Below, piece by piece: positions 1 through 5,055 of a stretch of DNA of 5,055 bases (the stretch's first letter is position 1; the number at the start of each line of letters is the position of its first letter). A program made the translations under genes and the position numbers. The notes below the pieces were generated by a model that saw only the letters and a list, made by a program, of their open reading frames with translations, searched no databases and was not told the origin of the DNA. Origin of the DNA: a candidate division SR1 bacterium CG_4_9_14_3_um_filter_40_9 (GTDB taxonomy: Bacteria > Patescibacteriota > Gracilibacteria > Absconditabacterales > Absconditicoccaceae); the NCBI GenBank assembly GCA_002791215.1, contig PFWQ01000089.1, forward strand, positions 3,909-8,963, in the 5' to 3' direction.

Positions 1-1172
1 ACCGTATCATTGAAGTAGAATGGATTCATCCATCACGGGAAAAAGTCTCACAGCATTCAGTCTTTATCCATCTGTTCAAAAATTTTATTGGCTAATTCAA
101 ATCGTTCTTCTTTTGAATATTCTTTGTTGAAGATACAGAATGATTTATTCTTGAGGCCTACACAGCCAAGACAATAGGAACAATTATCCAAAAAATAAGA
201 ATAATAGATATTCTGGCCTATAATGCGCATACTTAAAAATATTTTATTCGAACCTCATCAAGATCACATGACACCATACAAATTGGCATTGCTGTCTGCT
301 CATGCATTTATCACATCAAGCAGATTCTCATTGACTCAATTCCCTCAGACAAGAAACACATTTCTCCCATTTTTCACCTGATATGAAAAATAGCCATTCT
401 CAATATCTTCAGAATACAGGACAAATTCTCATTTTACATTCGTACTTCATATATTTTTTCATTTAGCATTCAACTGCCTGTAAGCGGATAAAAATAAATC
501 CTTATCATGCAAAATCTTTCCCTTTTCTCTCAGATAATTCTCTTTGGAATATTGGGCATTTTTTATGCAATAGCTTTTATTTTCCAAATCATCACAAAAA
601 ATACATTCACTGCATCAATTCAGATTAGTCGAAAACCGGATATTTGAAGAATTAACGATATATTTTGAATAAAAAATCTTGAACGACTTTACCACTCAAG
701 CAGTCATATAAATAAGATCACAATTATCAAATACCATCATGCTATTAAAAACGTTATTGGAATCTTTTATATTGAAACTATATAAAACACTTTCTGAATA
801 ACCGACTGTGTTGGTAAGATAAATATTGCGAGAATCTTTCACTACATCTCCATACTCGCAATTTTCAGATTTCCCAAAATGCATTTTATTTGGGAAACAA
901 ATAGATTTCAATAATTTTTGATAATTATCAAAAAAACTTTGGCCGAAATCATATGGTAATCATTTTTTTATAAGTTCATCCCTGCCATCCTCAAACTCAC
1001 GAACAGAAATAATTCACCCGATTCTATCATTTTTGGGATATCTCGAATTAAAGACATCCCATCTATAAGATGAAAGAGACATCCAGGAAGCCTGTTGTTT
1101 CACAAAATCTCTCCAAGTAGTCTGCTTCCTTTTCTCTTTCATCTTTTCTTCTCGTTTCTTGATATCTTGCAT
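1..1172 (-). CDS. Cysteine-motif solenoid-repeat protein of unknown function, CPR type, 3' end outside window
   Basis: The first 390 codons are visible; the C-terminus lies beyond position 1. Sixteen in-frame TGA codons are read as glycine, with no TAA or TAG. From memory it resembles a family of cysteine-rich hypothetical proteins common in CPR genomes: a basic N-terminus, then a YDFGQSFFDNYQKL segment (about 74-87), then short repeats, then a CxxCxxC...C-I-x-N-x-x-YSKE motif, then FFPGWMNPFYFNDT. Residues about 104-203 fit a 12-residue repeat. The cysteine motif occurs twice (187-211 and 331-355). I see no signal peptide or membrane segment. The N-terminal zinc-finger-like cysteines that I recall in relatives appear absent here. 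The ATG at 1172 is the first after an in-frame TAA at 1178-1176; it lacks a Shine-Dalgarno. Met11 (1142) is an alternative start behind a purine-rich stretch. It follows the ATPase by 26 bases, probably in the same transcript. Function is unknown; metal binding or a structural solenoid is only a guess. Confidence 0.85.
108..245 (-). repeat. Protein-level repeat block B of the cysteine-motif protein (residues 310-355)
   Basis: The block starts KIFLS, then NIYYS, then C331, C334, C337, then L340-x-N-K-S-x-C346-I-x-N349-x-x-Y352-S-K-E355. It is the second copy of block A and closer to the version I recall from other CPR members of the family. It is followed by the FFPGWMNPF segment at about residue 376. 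Confidence 0.85.
540..680 (-). repeat. Protein-level repeat block A of the cysteine-motif protein (residues 165-211)
   Basis: The block starts KIFYS and continues with SNIRFS, then C187, C190, C193, then L196-x-N-K-S-x-C202-I-x-N205-x-x-Y208-S-K-E211. It aligns with block B (residues 310-355) at an offset of 144-145 residues with one single-residue gap. More than 20 of about 46 positions match, including all four cysteines. The DNA of the two copies has diverged, so the duplication is old or under selection at the protein level. Confidence 0.85.
564..863 (-). repeat. Tandem 12-residue protein repeats, about eight copies (residues 104-203)
   Basis: Set in rows of 12 from Asn104, with one extra residue in the fifth row, the sequence shows aligned columns. 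Position 1 is mostly N, S or D. Position 2 is I, V, L or C. Position 4 is mostly Y, F or L. Position 8 is mostly V, I or L. Position 10 is often D or N, and position 11 is often S. Rows start at 104, 116, 128, 140, 152, 165, 177 and 189, running into C202. The alternating pattern with small polar turns suggests a beta-solenoid; the fold is inferred. Confidence 0.65.
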
Positions 1173-1197
1173 GATTTAAAATCTAGATAAAACTATT

Positions 1198-1252
1198 TTT
1201 ATCATTTTATCGCGTCAGCGTTTATCGCCCCGACTATTTCGGGGCTTTTATC
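1198..1252. repeat. Four TTTATC (GATAAA) copies separating small palindromes
   Basis: TTTATC on the plus strand occurs at 1198-1203, 1206-1211, 1221-1226 and 1247-1252. A short palindrome CGC-GTCA-GCG (1211-1220) and the GCCCCG hairpin (1227-1245) lie between copies, and the second hairpin (1254-1269) follows the last. The array covers the final ATPase codons and its stop. Part of the repetition may be chance in AT-rich DNA. Confidence 0.5.
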
Positions 1253-3997
1253 ACTCGCTCTTTTGCGAGCTTTTTTGATTTCCCTCACCGACAAATACAA
1301 AGCCGCACCTGCGATAGGGAACAACCAATCAACTAATCTCATACTACCAAATCAGAAAAAATCCTTGATTCACGGCACATACATAATCACCAAGATTCCA
1401 ACAAATCATCACAAGAATGCAAGTAATAATTTTTTATTTGACCAGAGATACGAAGTGTATATAGAATCTGAATTGAATGTTCTACGCGACAAGATGTTCG
1501 TATACTGACACAGTACGATGCTGGTATAGGTCACGGCATTGGCAGTCATATATCCCACTCACGACACATCTATACTACCGTATGGAATTCTATGAAACAC
1601 AAAATAGAGAATATAATTGGTAAATGCTATAAGTCACATCAGCGCACCAGCCCATATCAAATCAACAATCGCCGATTTACTCAACACATGTTCTTTTACA
1701 TCTCTTGGCTTTTCTTTCATCAATCATGGGGACGCAGGGTCAAGCGCAAGCACAGTCAACGGCGTCATCTCCGCCATCAAATCAATCATCAGAATCTGAA
1801 CCACAGTGATAGAAATAGGGATATTCCAAAAAGCTTTGGCTACCAAACTCGGCAAGACTGCAAATAGTTCTCATCCATTTGAAGTAATACAGGATAAGAT
1901 TGTCTTTTTAAGATTCTGGAAGATGATCCTTCATTCTCTGATTGCATTGACCAAAGTTCAGAAGCTATCATCAAGCAATACGATTTCAGATGCCTCCTTG
2001 GCAACATCAGTTCATATCTTTCACATAGCTACTCAGATATTAGCCATTTTAAGGGCAGGCGCATCATTGATTCCATCTCAGGTTACCGCTACGATATTTG
2101 CATTGGCTTTGAGCAAGGAAACGATTCTGAGTTTATCTTCTGGAGATGCTCTGCAGAAAATCACTCGTTTATGTCCCAAATCGTCCAAAAGCTGTATATC
2201 ACTTTTTTTTCTTATCTCGTCTCACATCACCACAAATGGCTCTTCCTGAATTCTTTCCAATCATATCTTTTTGGCGATAGCTATAGCAGTCAAAGCTGAA
2301 TCACCGGTAATCATGACTACCTTAATATGCGCTTGATAAGCAGCGACCATAGCCGCAGGGACTTCCTCTCTTGGCGGATCCATGATGCTGGCGATTCACA
2401 GAAACACCAACTCACTTTCCACACTTTCCATAGTATAATTCACCTCCGCAGTCCTCATGGGCTTATACGCGATGGCAAGATTTCTCATCGCATGCTCAGC
2501 CAACCCATCGACAGTTTCCAGGATTTTGTCTTTATCTCTCTTTACCATTCTCCTGATTGTCTTCCCGTCATAATATAAGGAACATTTTGCAAGTACCTCA
2601 ATCGGCGATCATTTGACGTAAGCGAAAGTTTCACCTTCCACCGTACGGATACTCGACATCATTTTCCTCACCGAATCAAATCCAAACTCATAAATTTCAT
2701 GATATTGTCCACTCACATGCTCTGTATCATATCATGCTTTCTTTGCAAGAACAATTAACGCCGCTTCTGTTGGATCACCAATCGCATACCGTAGAAAATG
2801 TTCAGCATCAGGCGGATTCACTTTTGCATGAGCGTTGAGAAAACACCCGAGAAAAAAATGTTTCCAACTCTGTAAAAAAATTTCATTTTCACGTCCCTCA
2901 CCTCGCGACCTGCTTCCCTGTGCATCATAGCCAGATCCAGTTATCTCATACACTTTCCCTCCAAGAAAAATATTTCTGACCGTCATCTCATTTTTGGTCA
3001 AAGTTCACGTCTTATCGGTACAGATAACGTTGACGCATCCGAGCGTTTCAACAGATGCCAATTGCTTCACCAAAGCGTTCTTTTTCGCTAATCTTCCGGA
3101 TGCCAAAGTCAGAGACAGACTTACCTGTGCAGGTAATCCCTGCGGCACCATAGACGCCGCGATACCTATCGCAAAGACAAATGCTTCATGTAAGGTAAAG
3201 TGCGCCAACAAAGCGATAGCAATAAGCACAACTCACAAAACGACTGTTCCTAGAGTTAACTTTTGGGCGACATTTTTAAGTTCCCTTTGAAGCGGAGTTG
3301 TTTCAGGAGAGGCCTCATGTGACAAGGTAGCAATCCTTCCTAGTTCCGTATTCATTCACGTGGCAAAAACAACACCATATCCACTTCATGTTGCCACCGT
3401 TGTTCACATATACATAAGATTATTTCTTTGACCGACATCAGCTTCTCATTTGATGGCATGCACATATTTATTGAGGGGACTTGATTCTCCTGTAAGTGAA
3501 AAGTCATTGGTCTGGAGATTCATTTCTTCGATAATTCTCAGATCCGCAGGGATACTATCTCCCTCGTCGACAAACACCACATCACCAGGGACAAGCTCAG
3601 CAGCTTGCACTTCGATCAGCTTTCCATCTCTTTTTACTTTTGCAACAGGATTAAGTATTTTTTTGAGCGACTGCATGATTTTTTCCGCTTTCGCTTCTTG
3701 TATATATCAGATGATAGAATTGGCTATGATGATAATACTCAAAATCGTCGCTCCTCTATAATCTTGGAGATAAATTGCTATGCCCGTACTCACAATTAAC
3801 AAGATAATCAAAGCATCTTTAAACTGTTTGAAAAACTTTTGCAACATCGACTCACGATGAAGCTCAGTAAGGACATTTTGACCGTACACCTGTCTTCTTG
3901 ATTGCACCTCTTCATCAGAAATCCCTTCTTTGGACGTATTGAGTGTCTCAAAAATTTCTGGAAGTTCCAATTGATAATAAGGTAAATTTTTTATCAT
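1199..3997 (-). CDS. P2-type cation-transporting P-type ATPase, complete, 27 TGA codons read as glycine
   Basis: This is an integral membrane ATP-driven cation pump of 932 residues, a normal length for P2-type pumps. Visible in order: an N-terminal cation-ATPase domain (about 1-60); M1-M2 (about 62-97); actuator loop TGES (169-172); M3 (about 247-265); M4 with PQGLP (285-289); phosphorylation motif DKTGTLT with Asp328; nucleotide-binding KGSP (462-465); DPPR (540-543); MITGD (562-566); RxxPxxK with Lys622; TGDGINDAP (639-647); M5 with SNGGE (706-710); M6 with IDLMAE (738-743); and M7-M10 to about 905. All signature motifs are intact once TGA is glycine, including Gly331, Gly463, Gly640 and Gly709. 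The ATG at 3997 is chosen because the protein then begins like relatives; a TTG at 4048 in the same frame would overlap hsdR. No Shine-Dalgarno is visible. The gene ends TGA-TAA, with TAG two codons later. The ion is uncertain: site residues differ from SERCA (Gln286, Asp739, Ala742, Glu743). Confidence 0.97.
1227..1249 (+). terminator. Terminator-like hairpin on the strand opposite to the ATPase
   Basis: The plus strand has a perfect 6-bp GC-rich stem, GCCCCG (1227-1232) with CGGGGC (1240-1245), a 7-base loop, then TTTT. This is the form of an intrinsic terminator for plus-strand transcription. On the minus strand the same hairpin is followed by GATAAAC, not a U-tract, so it does not look like a terminator for the ATPase transcript. 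It lies within ATPase codons, and no plus-strand gene is seen nearby. Confidence 0.5.
1254..1276 (+). terminator. Second terminator-like hairpin, tandem with the first
   Basis: The plus strand has CTCGC (1254-1258) pairing with GCGAG (1265-1269), a 6-base loop, then C and six T residues (1271-1276). It precedes the GCCCCG hairpin in the plus-strand direction, separated by ACTTTTATC-type sequence read on that strand's downstream side. It encodes part of the KKARKRAS segment of the ATPase C-terminus on the minus strand. The same reservation applies: no plus-strand gene is evident. Confidence 0.45.
2078..2080 (-). other. TGA codon for Gly640 in the ATPase hinge motif TGDGINDAP
   Basis: The minus-strand codons read ACC TGA GAT GGA ATC AAT GAT. 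TGDGxND binds Mg2+ and forms the hinge of the phosphorylation domain. Its first glycine is TGA, while the second is GGA, so TGA and GGN are used side by side for the same residue in one motif. Confidence 0.97.
3005..3007 (-). other. TGA codon for Gly331 in the ATPase phosphorylation motif DKTGTLT
   Basis: The minus-strand codons read GAT AAG ACG TGA ACT TTG ACC. DKTGTLT is the defining motif of P-type ATPases, where Asp328 receives the phosphate. The TGA occupies the invariant glycine, and the reading frame continues with family sequence on both sides. This excludes a frameshift and excludes TGA as Trp or as a functional stop here. Confidence 0.97.
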
Positions 3998-4019
3998 AGA
4001 AAAATAAAAAATATTAAAA

Positions 4020-5055
4020 TTATTTCTCTTCGCTTCGTTCTTCTGCAAGCACCTTGGTCTGCAGCAAAATCAGTTCTGTCGTAATTTTGGCTTGATCAGG
4101 TGGATATCCGAATTCATTTAAAATTCTTTTTACAATCACGCGGAGTTTCGCTTGCGCTGATTCTTTAATTTGTCGGTCGATAGCGGTATTTGCTTTAACT
4201 TTTTGCACCAGGACTTTTGCAATAGTTCTTAATTGTTTATCTCCCAAAACATCTTGCGCACTCTGATTTGAAGCCAAAGCATCATAAAAAGCTATTTCAT
4301 CATCAGTAAGTCAGGTTTCTTTGTTTTTGGCATCCGCCGCGTTTATCTCCTTTGCGATATTGATTAACTCTTCGATAATTTGAGCGGTTGTAATAAGATT
4401 ATTATGATATTTATTAATCACTTGCTGGAGCATTTCTGAAAGTTTTTTACTTTGAACAATATTTTTCTTTCCTCTTTTACTTATTTCATCTCTCAAGATT
4501 TTTTTCAAAAGCTCCAATGCAACATTTTTATGCTCCATATCTCTGACCTCTGCCAAGAATTCATCAGAAAGAATAGAAATGTTGGGCTTCTCCAATCATG
4601 CAACCGCAAAAATATCCATAACGCCCTCGACTTGTACCGCGTTATCAATCATCTGTTTGATGGTTGTTTCGATTAACTTATTTTTCTCGTCGGTGGTAGA
4701 GCTGGTAAATTTACTCAAACGCGCTTTGATAGCTTGAAAAAATGCAACCTCTTCTTTGATTTCCATCGCAGGTAAGCTTGGTACGGAAAGAGCAAATGAT
4801 TGAGAAAGTAAATTTACTTGGTCAACAAATCTTTTGGCTCCATTGTCCAATCATAGAATATAATCCTGAGCAGAAAGAATAATTCACATCTTACCTCTTG
4901 TATCAGCAGTGAAATATGGTTTATAATCAAATTTTGCGAAAATTCATTCTACAATTTCATATTTTTCTTTCATCTGAGCAATAGCATCAGCCTGATCAAA
5001 AGTCGGTTTTCCTTCTCCTCCGCTTTCGGTATACACAGCTAACGCTTCTTTGAGG
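4020..5055 (-). CDS. hsdR: Type I restriction enzyme R subunit (HsdR), C-terminal 344 residues, 5' end outside window
   Basis: HsdR is the ATP-dependent DNA translocase and endonuclease subunit of type I restriction systems and works in a complex with HsdM and HsdS. Only the C-terminal helical region that follows the helicase core is visible, so the nuclease and helicase motifs lie beyond position 5055. Recognisable family stretches, in order, are [67 protein letters not shown] and the terminal [11 protein letters not shown] plus FGYPPD. Five in-frame TGA codons are read as glycine; at least two (DIFAVAG, and the G before [13 protein letters not shown]) match glycines usual in the family. The gene ends with TAA at 4022-4020, and the ATPase start follows 22 bases later. 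Family members are usually about 1000 residues, so roughly two thirds is missing. HsdM and HsdS are predicted upstream, outside the window. Family assignment is from remembered motifs and is very secure. Confidence 0.95.

Follow-up and report, generated by a model that had tools for sequence, protein, structure and literature searches.

Probable reading of UGA as glycine and of CGA and CGG as tryptophan in a candidate division SR1 genome

In a BD1-5 population the reading of UGA as glycine was shown by proteomics (Hanke 2014, PMC4032931), and prfB, the gene for release factor 2 (RF2), is reported as undetected in BD1-5 genomes (PMC6851277). For Absconditabacteria a code has been published in which UGA is glycine and, in addition, CGA and CGG are tryptophan (Shulgina & Eddy 2021, PMC8629427). 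The NCBI translation table labelled for SR1 and Gracilibacteria, table 25, has the first of these changes and keeps CGA and CGG as arginine. Here we discuss a stretch of 5,055 nucleotides from the draft genome of a candidate division SR1 bacterium (G000:C5:3909-8963), referred to as the window, and the code in which its three genes are written, those for the C-terminal part of an HsdR-like protein, a P-type ATPase and a Cys-rich repeat protein. The host draft has 922,604 bases in 95 contigs and is 88.5% complete, and the host organism is most likely a member of the Absconditabacteria (SR1).

On the sequence evidence set out below it is very probable that the host reads UGA as glycine and both CGA and CGG as tryptophan, with UAA and UAG staying as stops. 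With regard to the described codes, the window and its family resemble table 25 in having UGA at glycine positions, release factor 1 (RF1) as the only such factor, and a glycine tRNA with the anticodon UCA, tRNA-Gly(UCA), but the window misfits the retention of CGA and CGG as arginine. The likeness to the code of Shulgina & Eddy, in the form described in PMC8629427, extends to all three codons and to a tRNA(UCG) with tryptophan identity, which is found in the family. The code of the window belongs to this already published kind, the reassignment of tryptophan codons having reached an advanced stage. In homologue-backed frames of the host aligned by BLAST there are 25 CGA, 17 CGG and 29 UGG per 10,000 codons, near the 30, 24 and 35 that PMC8629427 gives, from Pfam alignments, for its one advanced case. 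Code 4, as described in PMC6851277, also has UGA as a sense codon and has lost RF2, but the amino acid is tryptophan, and in the window it is glycine.

Reassignment of UGA, CGA and CGG

All three genes are on the minus strand (Table 1) and, as the original prediction had stated, they are open only if TGA is a sense codon; its hand counts of TGA and of codons for each gene are exact. All three are free of internal TAA and TAG, of which each of the two remaining frames on that strand contains 11-28. TGA makes up 36% of the glycine codons in HsdR, 39% in the ATPase and 52% in the repeat protein, the range first estimated, and under code 11 the genes are fragmented as foreseen, the longest open reading frame (ORF) on the coding strand being 113 aa. 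The window is richer in TGA than the genome average, as TGA is 21% of the glycine codons in the wider homologue-backed frames of the host.

Table 1. Genes of the window and their marker codons, with residue counts in aligned homologues
Feature	Position	Strand	Detail
HsdR-like C-terminal part, type I restriction endonuclease subunit	4020..5055	-	344 codons; open at window edge; 5 TGA, 2 CGA, 0 TGG
P-type cation ATPase, nearest Ca2+ type	1199..3997	-	932 codons; 27 TGA, 2 CGA, 1 CGG, 5 TGG
Cys-rich repeat protein	3..1172	-	390 codons; open at window edge; 16 TGA, 2 CGA, 1 CGG, 4 TGG
HsdR codon 153, TGA at invariant Gly	4596..4598	-	G in 120/120 listed homologues
ATPase codon 331, TGA at invariant Gly	3005..3007	-	G in 58/58 distant homologues
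HsdR codon 294, CGA	4173..4175	-	W in 120/120 listed homologues
HsdR codon 340, CGA, mostly Trp column	4035..4037	-	W 66, L 37, F 4, gap 4 of 120
ATPase codon 403, CGG	2789..2791	-	W in 54/58 distant homologues, R in 3
Repeat-protein codon 179, CGG at Trp column	636..638	-	W 84, R 31, Y 5 of 120
Repeat-protein codon 357, CGA	102..104	-	W 67, R 52, Y 1 of 120

For each gene 120 listed homologues were aligned with TGA, CGA and CGG masked, and for the ATPase 58 distant homologues were used as well. In the distant ATPase set glycine is more frequent than any other residue at 20 of the 27 TGA codons and at 26 of the 42 GGN codons, and TGA thus acts like GGN. Columns with at least 90% glycine in that set take up 11 of the 27 TGA as against 15 of the 42 GGN codons (TGA 11, GGA 7, GGT 6, GGG 1 and GGC 1, 26 codons in all). 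The corresponding figures for glycine as commonest residue are 3/5 TGA against 7/9 GGN codons in HsdR, and 10/16 against 7/15 in the repeat protein. An invariant glycine is found at TGA in HsdR codon 153 and in ATPase codon 331, the latter within the DKTGT phosphorylation motif. A set of ATPase motifs had been put forward as holding family-invariant glycines, and most of them do, codons 198, 331, 463, 640, 659, 662 and 689 being glycine in 54-58 of the 58; codon 97 (SII-G-YIQE), with 37/58, and codon 709 (NG-G-E), with 44/58, fall short of this. TGA also occurs off glycine columns, at HsdR codons 37 (Q in 105/120) and 57 (T in 65/120) and at ATPase codons 680, 758, 813, 863, 864 and 876, and 56 of the 58 distant homologues end before ATPase TGA codon 932 is reached.

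When TGA was read as each of the 20 residues in turn and scored against a homologue profile, glycine was best both for the ATPase (1330.5 bits, with S next at 1281.5; the profile, from P0074-P0120, may include some recoded relatives) and for HsdR (521.2 bits, with S and N next at 514.6). The repeat protein was kept out of this test because its named homologues come from recoded lineages.

The same question was put to a genome sample of 20 stretches (206 kb; 13 contigs picked for the window, RF1 or tRNAs and 7 picked by number), which was compared with 1.04 Mb of the RF2-bearing relatives G051 and G052, each codon being masked before the search and the BLOSUM62 scores of the opposite residues summed. 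Thirteen codons were tested in all. For TGA glycine was best at 544, with the next residue at 0 (125 sites), so that the earlier assignment of UGA to glycine holds as the best of 20 readings in HsdR, in the ATPase and in the genome sample. For CGA tryptophan was best at 61, with arginine at -40 (21 sites), and for CGG tryptophan was best at 52, with arginine at -35 (16 sites). The ten control codons (TGG, CGT, CGC, AGA, AGG, GGA, GGT, GGC, TGT and ATA) all gave the standard residue, CGT and CGC weakly (14 and 12). Internal TGA is present in 29 of the 32 homologue-backed frames of the sample, and the 19 gene ends that could be anchored by homologues comprise 18 TAA or TAG and a single TGA. In 11 other genomes of the family, pooled, the glycine sum for TGA is 1905. 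Antisense frames were present in the reference sets for the codon-use and Fisher counts, and were thinned before the BLOSUM sums and the frame and stop counts.

Most of the CGA and CGG codons of the window are in columns where tryptophan outnumbers every other residue, and the clearest site is HsdR codon 294; this gene is without TGG, and both of its columns with at least 50% tryptophan, codons 294 and 340, are CGA. Read as each of the 20 residues, CGA and CGG together (CGR) gave tryptophan as best in HsdR (522.4 bits, arginine 510.9) and in the ATPase (1272.6 bits, arginine 1270.3). Translation with table 25 puts arginine where tryptophan is expected in all three window genes. Alignment of such translations to Pfam had been proposed as a check and bears out the glycine reading, PF11867 matching HsdR at 396.6 bits and PF00122, PF00702 and other families matching the ATPase above cut-off; with CGA and CGG also taken as tryptophan the PF11867 score is 407.2 bits. 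The original prediction had named genetic code 25, and it was right as to UGA at glycine, but CGA and CGG are best read as tryptophan and their arginine sums are negative.

Several observations weigh against the tryptophan reading. The eight ATPase columns with at least 50% tryptophan hold 3 TGG, 1 CGG and 4 other codons, and the columns of the ATPase CGA codons 365 and 611 are variable. At repeat-protein CGA codon 7 arginine (56 of 120) slightly exceeds tryptophan (53). The CGA and CGG sites of the genome sample are few, and in the 11 pooled genomes the best sum for CGA is Y at 9, ahead of W at 7 (R -40). For CGG in the same genomes W is at 13 and R at -15. Outside the window's genome the exclusion of arginine is firmer than the assignment of tryptophan. 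Repeat-protein codon 7 and the weak CGA signal of the pooled genomes, with the label of the table and a gain of just 2.3 bits for tryptophan over arginine in the ATPase, are what speaks for plain table 25, in which UGA alone has changed and CGA and CGG are still arginine. It is the alternative that survives best, and we consider it improbable: arginine is negative at CGA and CGG in the very genome where CGT, CGC, AGA and AGG are all positive for it, it is far rarer opposite CGA and CGG than opposite AGA (Fisher 6e-9 and 1e-7, the pairs being partly dependent and the reference set including antisense frames), and HsdR codon 294 is opposite tryptophan throughout. The arginine found at the CGA and CGG columns of the repeat protein may be a translation artefact in homologues that appear to come from recoded lineages.

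CGG was not seen at all in 8 of the 11 other family genomes, the samples being small. In one of these samples, G030 (858 codons), CGA and CGG together number 35 and, as in the host, exceed TGG (12), but there is no tryptophan among the opposite residues listed.

Code 4, with UGA as tryptophan as in Mycoplasma, has apparently been used for some database entries of these proteins, and one homologue is indeed titled '(gcode 4)'. At 22 of the 27 TGA columns of the ATPase 10-53 of the 120 listed homologues have tryptophan, and it is the commonest residue at repeat-protein TGA codons 372 and 375 (W 61 and 65, G 50 and 55, of the 120 listed), which taken at face value counts against glycine. However the tryptophan counts shown for the distant ATPase set of 58 do not go above 7 at any TGA column, and the tryptophan resembles code-4 calls in recoded lineages; we take the excess at codons 372 and 375 to be a candidate case of such gene calls. 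For the ATPase tryptophan at TGA is 58 bits below glycine, the PF11867 score of HsdR falls to 379.9 bits under code 4, and TGG is itself read as tryptophan in the host, in agreement with the earlier statement that TGG and not TGA is the tryptophan codon. We regard code 4 as very improbable for the host. Tryptophan at many TGA columns, again resembling code-4 gene calls, was seen among homologues P0001-P0120 and P0241-P0360. Gene decay, sequencing errors or UGA read-through under the standard code can be set aside, as no point in support of this was found other than the draft state of the genome (95 contigs), and against it are 48 TGA with no internal TAA or TAG across three adjacent open frames, the internal TGA of nearly all frames in the sample, and the failure to find RF2 in the draft.

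If UGA is glycine and both CGA and CGG tryptophan, the database entries for proteins of this lineage are apparently mistranslated twice, with UGA as tryptophan and with CGA and CGG as arginine, the second even where table 25 was used. Table 25 with CGA and CGG changed to tryptophan would repair conserved sites, of which HsdR is an example.

Release factors and tRNAs

The prfB profile has only one match in the host draft, a gene on contig C91 (246.5 bits, cut-off 370). With the prfA profile this gene, which has 4 in-frame TGA, scores 421.2 bits, and we take it to be a putative RF1 gene on sequence grounds. RF2 itself was not found by the prfB profile in the draft, and is above cut-off in none of 36 genomes of the window's family (34 have sub-cut-off matches only and 2 have no match); among the 23 genomes sampled elsewhere in the class it is above cut-off in 20, the exceptions being G046, G048 and G057. 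Loss of RF2 had been named as a check on the glycine reading, and these results agree with it. An RF1 gene of the same family, in G021 (C5:76858-77874), has no in-frame TGA, although there are 3 and 6 of them in two T2SSE genes of G021.

Glycine tRNAs with the UCA anticodon were sought with a pattern allowing up to 3 mismatches, which was found in 31 of the 36 family genomes and in none of the 23 others, and ARAGORN reports tRNA-Gly(UCA) in G003, G004 and G008. We inspected 30 of the 31 loci. The 5' bases are GCG in 29 and GCA in 1, and the 3' ends are CGCT in 27 and TGCT in 1, the other 2 being trimmed differently. The rule for glycine tRNAs applied here, taken from PMC8629427, is G1:C72, C2:G71, G3:C70 and U73. 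All 30 loci have G directly after the anticodon (the pattern specified G, with 3 mismatches allowed), and tRNA-Tyr is nearby in 28 and tRNA-Ala in 26. A tRNA consensus (TTCAA ... GGTTCRANNC) gave only scattered matches for tRNA-Gly(UCA), and it performs poorly because these tRNAs carry G and not A after the anticodon. ARAGORN labels UCA tRNAs 'SeC', and a selenocysteine tRNA was considered and rejected, as the tRNAs have normal length and the acceptor bases of glycine, and UGA occurs much too often for it. Among public contigs 38 contain the tRNA(UCA) pattern without mismatch, and their titles name SR1, Absconditabacteria or Absconditabacterales in 12 cases, Gracilibacteria in 5, the Patescibacteria group in 5, Peribacteria in 1 and 'bacterium' only in 15; a search of viral contigs with the exact pattern gave 0 matches.

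Genes for tRNA(UCG/CCG), sought with a strict pattern, are present in 18 of the 36 family genomes and were found in none of the 23 others; the pattern missed a gene in G003 that was seen by another search. In the 18 genes, read by eye, position 73 is G in all and position 72 is U in 16.

Two points in this part of the evidence also tell against the proposed code. The prfA match is 2 bits below its curated cut-off (423.25), and neither tRNA-Gly(UCA) nor tRNA(UCG/CCG) was found in the host draft, so that the search for a UCA glycine tRNA that had been suggested as a check succeeded in the family but not in the host itself. The draft has 28 Rfam tRNA matches, and tRNAs for Cys, His, Tyr and Lys were likewise not found in it. 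Host contig C78 (11,557 bases) carries tRNAs for Leu, Glu, Arg and Ala in the order usual in the family and ends 8 bases past tRNA-Ala. In 26 of the 30 sister loci tRNA-Gly(UCA) is beyond tRNA-Ala in the same cluster, with tRNA-Tyr between them in 20 of those 26. Given this order and the position of the contig end, the host tRNA-Gly(UCA) gene most likely sits in an assembly gap.

The placement of the codons, a single RF1-like release-factor gene and, in sister genomes, both types of tRNA are observed, and they suggest how the code may work. UGA would be decoded by the glycine tRNA with the UCA anticodon, and with RF2 lost there would be no termination at UGA, leaving RF1 to serve UAA and UAG, which are predicted to be the sole stops. 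CGA and CGG would be decoded by the tRNA with a UCG (or CCG) anticodon and a tryptophan identity suggested by G73, and arginine would be left with AGA, AGG, CGU and CGC. A more speculative element is that G37, following the UCA anticodon, may help to keep tRNA-Gly(UCA) off UGG. For the host genome we infer that both tRNA genes are present and charged as predicted.

Other families of the class

The 23 genomes from outside the window's family include some that may show how such a code arose. Most of the other sampled families appear to have the standard code and RF2. In the case of G045 (same class, family f11, 95% complete, 1% contaminated) there is a gene on contig C1 resembling tRNA-Gly(UCA), which first surfaced as a stray match to the tRNA consensus given above. 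It starts GCG, has U73 and CCA, and scores 57.9 bits, and it has A after the anticodon, unlike the G of all 30 family loci. G045 also has RF2 (C59:6963-7994, 464 bits, no in-frame TGA), which looks intact and in which the SPF and GGQ motifs are both present.

TGA is found within genes of G045. Four of its 8 T2SSE matches are listed, all long and with 4, 2, 3 and 2 in-frame TGA, and in the T2SSE matches listed for other RF2-bearing genomes there are none. One of the four is at C59:10886-12130, some 3 kb away from the RF2 gene; the genes between the two and before the T2SSE gene are without TGA, and a frame of 244 aa just after the T2SSE gene, matching no family, has 2. Over 459 kb internal TGA is present in 14 of 106 homologue-backed frames (36 sites), or in 8 of 69 with G052 and 12 of 61 with G051 as single reference; in the RF2-bearing controls it is present in 1 of 62 frames (G052) and 1 of 75 (G051). 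The BLOSUM sum for these TGA is 91 for glycine, with N next at 7 (30 sites). The test of 20 readings was applied to three of the four listed T2SSE frames, and glycine was best for these; where fewer readings were compared it was the best of G, W, R and S in one T2SSE frame, and was above W in two more and in a MacB-like permease. CGA and CGG are read as arginine. The gene ends anchored by homologues are TAA in 54, TAG in 20 and TGA in 2 (n=76). The rarity of TGA ends is no proof of recoding, since G052, with RF2 and almost no internal TGA, shows 2 of 35; in G051 the figure is 18 of 49.

Against the reading of UGA as glycine in G045 it must be said that glycine is just 20 of the 41 residues opposite TGA, that some frames are maybe poor matches (one on C25 shows R, P, Q and A), and that the tRNA pattern was found in G045 alone of 60 genomes, among which there is no second genome of f11. 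Some genes of G045 may also have been gained horizontally from a recoded donor.

G048 (family f14) has TGA-rich genes, no RF2 above cut-off and an Arg-like tRNA(UCG), and the 32 tRNAs recovered from its 34 matches do not include a tRNA(UCA). In G046 (family f12) two T2SSE genes (C8:11209-12366 and C43:3454-4593) have 32 and 21 in-frame TGA in a local GC of 24-25%, and the prfB profile gave no match whatever, not even to RF1; this is perhaps a further recoded family, with a release factor that is very divergent or missing.

We lean slightly to the view that the class keeps successive steps of a single code change, running from the families with RF2 and the standard code through G045 and f14 to the family of the window, and that UGA was captured by a tRNA before RF2 was lost. 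G045 would represent a step at which RF2 is kept and CGA and CGG are arginine, but at which a gene resembling tRNA-Gly(UCA) is present, UGA codes for glycine at low frequency, mainly in genes for the type IV pilus ATPase and ABC permeases, and UGA stops are almost absent. In f14 RF2 would have been lost, with many in-frame UGA and tRNA(UCG) still Arg-like, and the window's family would have added the change of CGA and CGG to tryptophan, which in the host genome has gone so far that the two outnumber UGG. If the reading of G045 is true, the order of events, RF2 loss first or tRNA first, becomes testable within one bacterial class. No published report of an RF2-bearing intermediate was found in a literature search whose scope mostly did not extend to subscription papers and preprints.

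The genes of the window

HsdR has 6712 homologues at E<=1e-10 among 8000 candidates scored; the 7 with a taxon in the source name comprise 6 from outside the group and 1 Gracilibacterium. For the repeat protein no Pfam or NCBIfam family was found at E<=0.001. It has 603 homologues, and those with a named taxon among the 120 listed are all from Gracilibacteria or Absconditabacterales, several of them apparently from one contig. ARAGORN found no tRNA in the window.

In addition to PF00122 and PF00702 the ATPase matches PF00689, PF13246 and PF00690 above cut-off, and of the NCBIfam models the general P-type model TIGR01494 is above its curated cut-off and the specific models are below theirs. Its relatives in the PDB include lmo0841 and ATP2C1 (best E 2.7e-141), and most of its length can be aligned to solved bacterial and animal Ca2+ ATPases. 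The nearest homologues with a named taxon are from Absconditabacterales and SR1, and with the ATPase as query no related locus was found in the genome-contig collection. The ATPase frame is open for 40 codons 5' of the likely start (window 3998-4117), overlapping the end of HsdR in another frame, and the start at 3997 is a better fit to the lengths of the homologues than the upstream extension.

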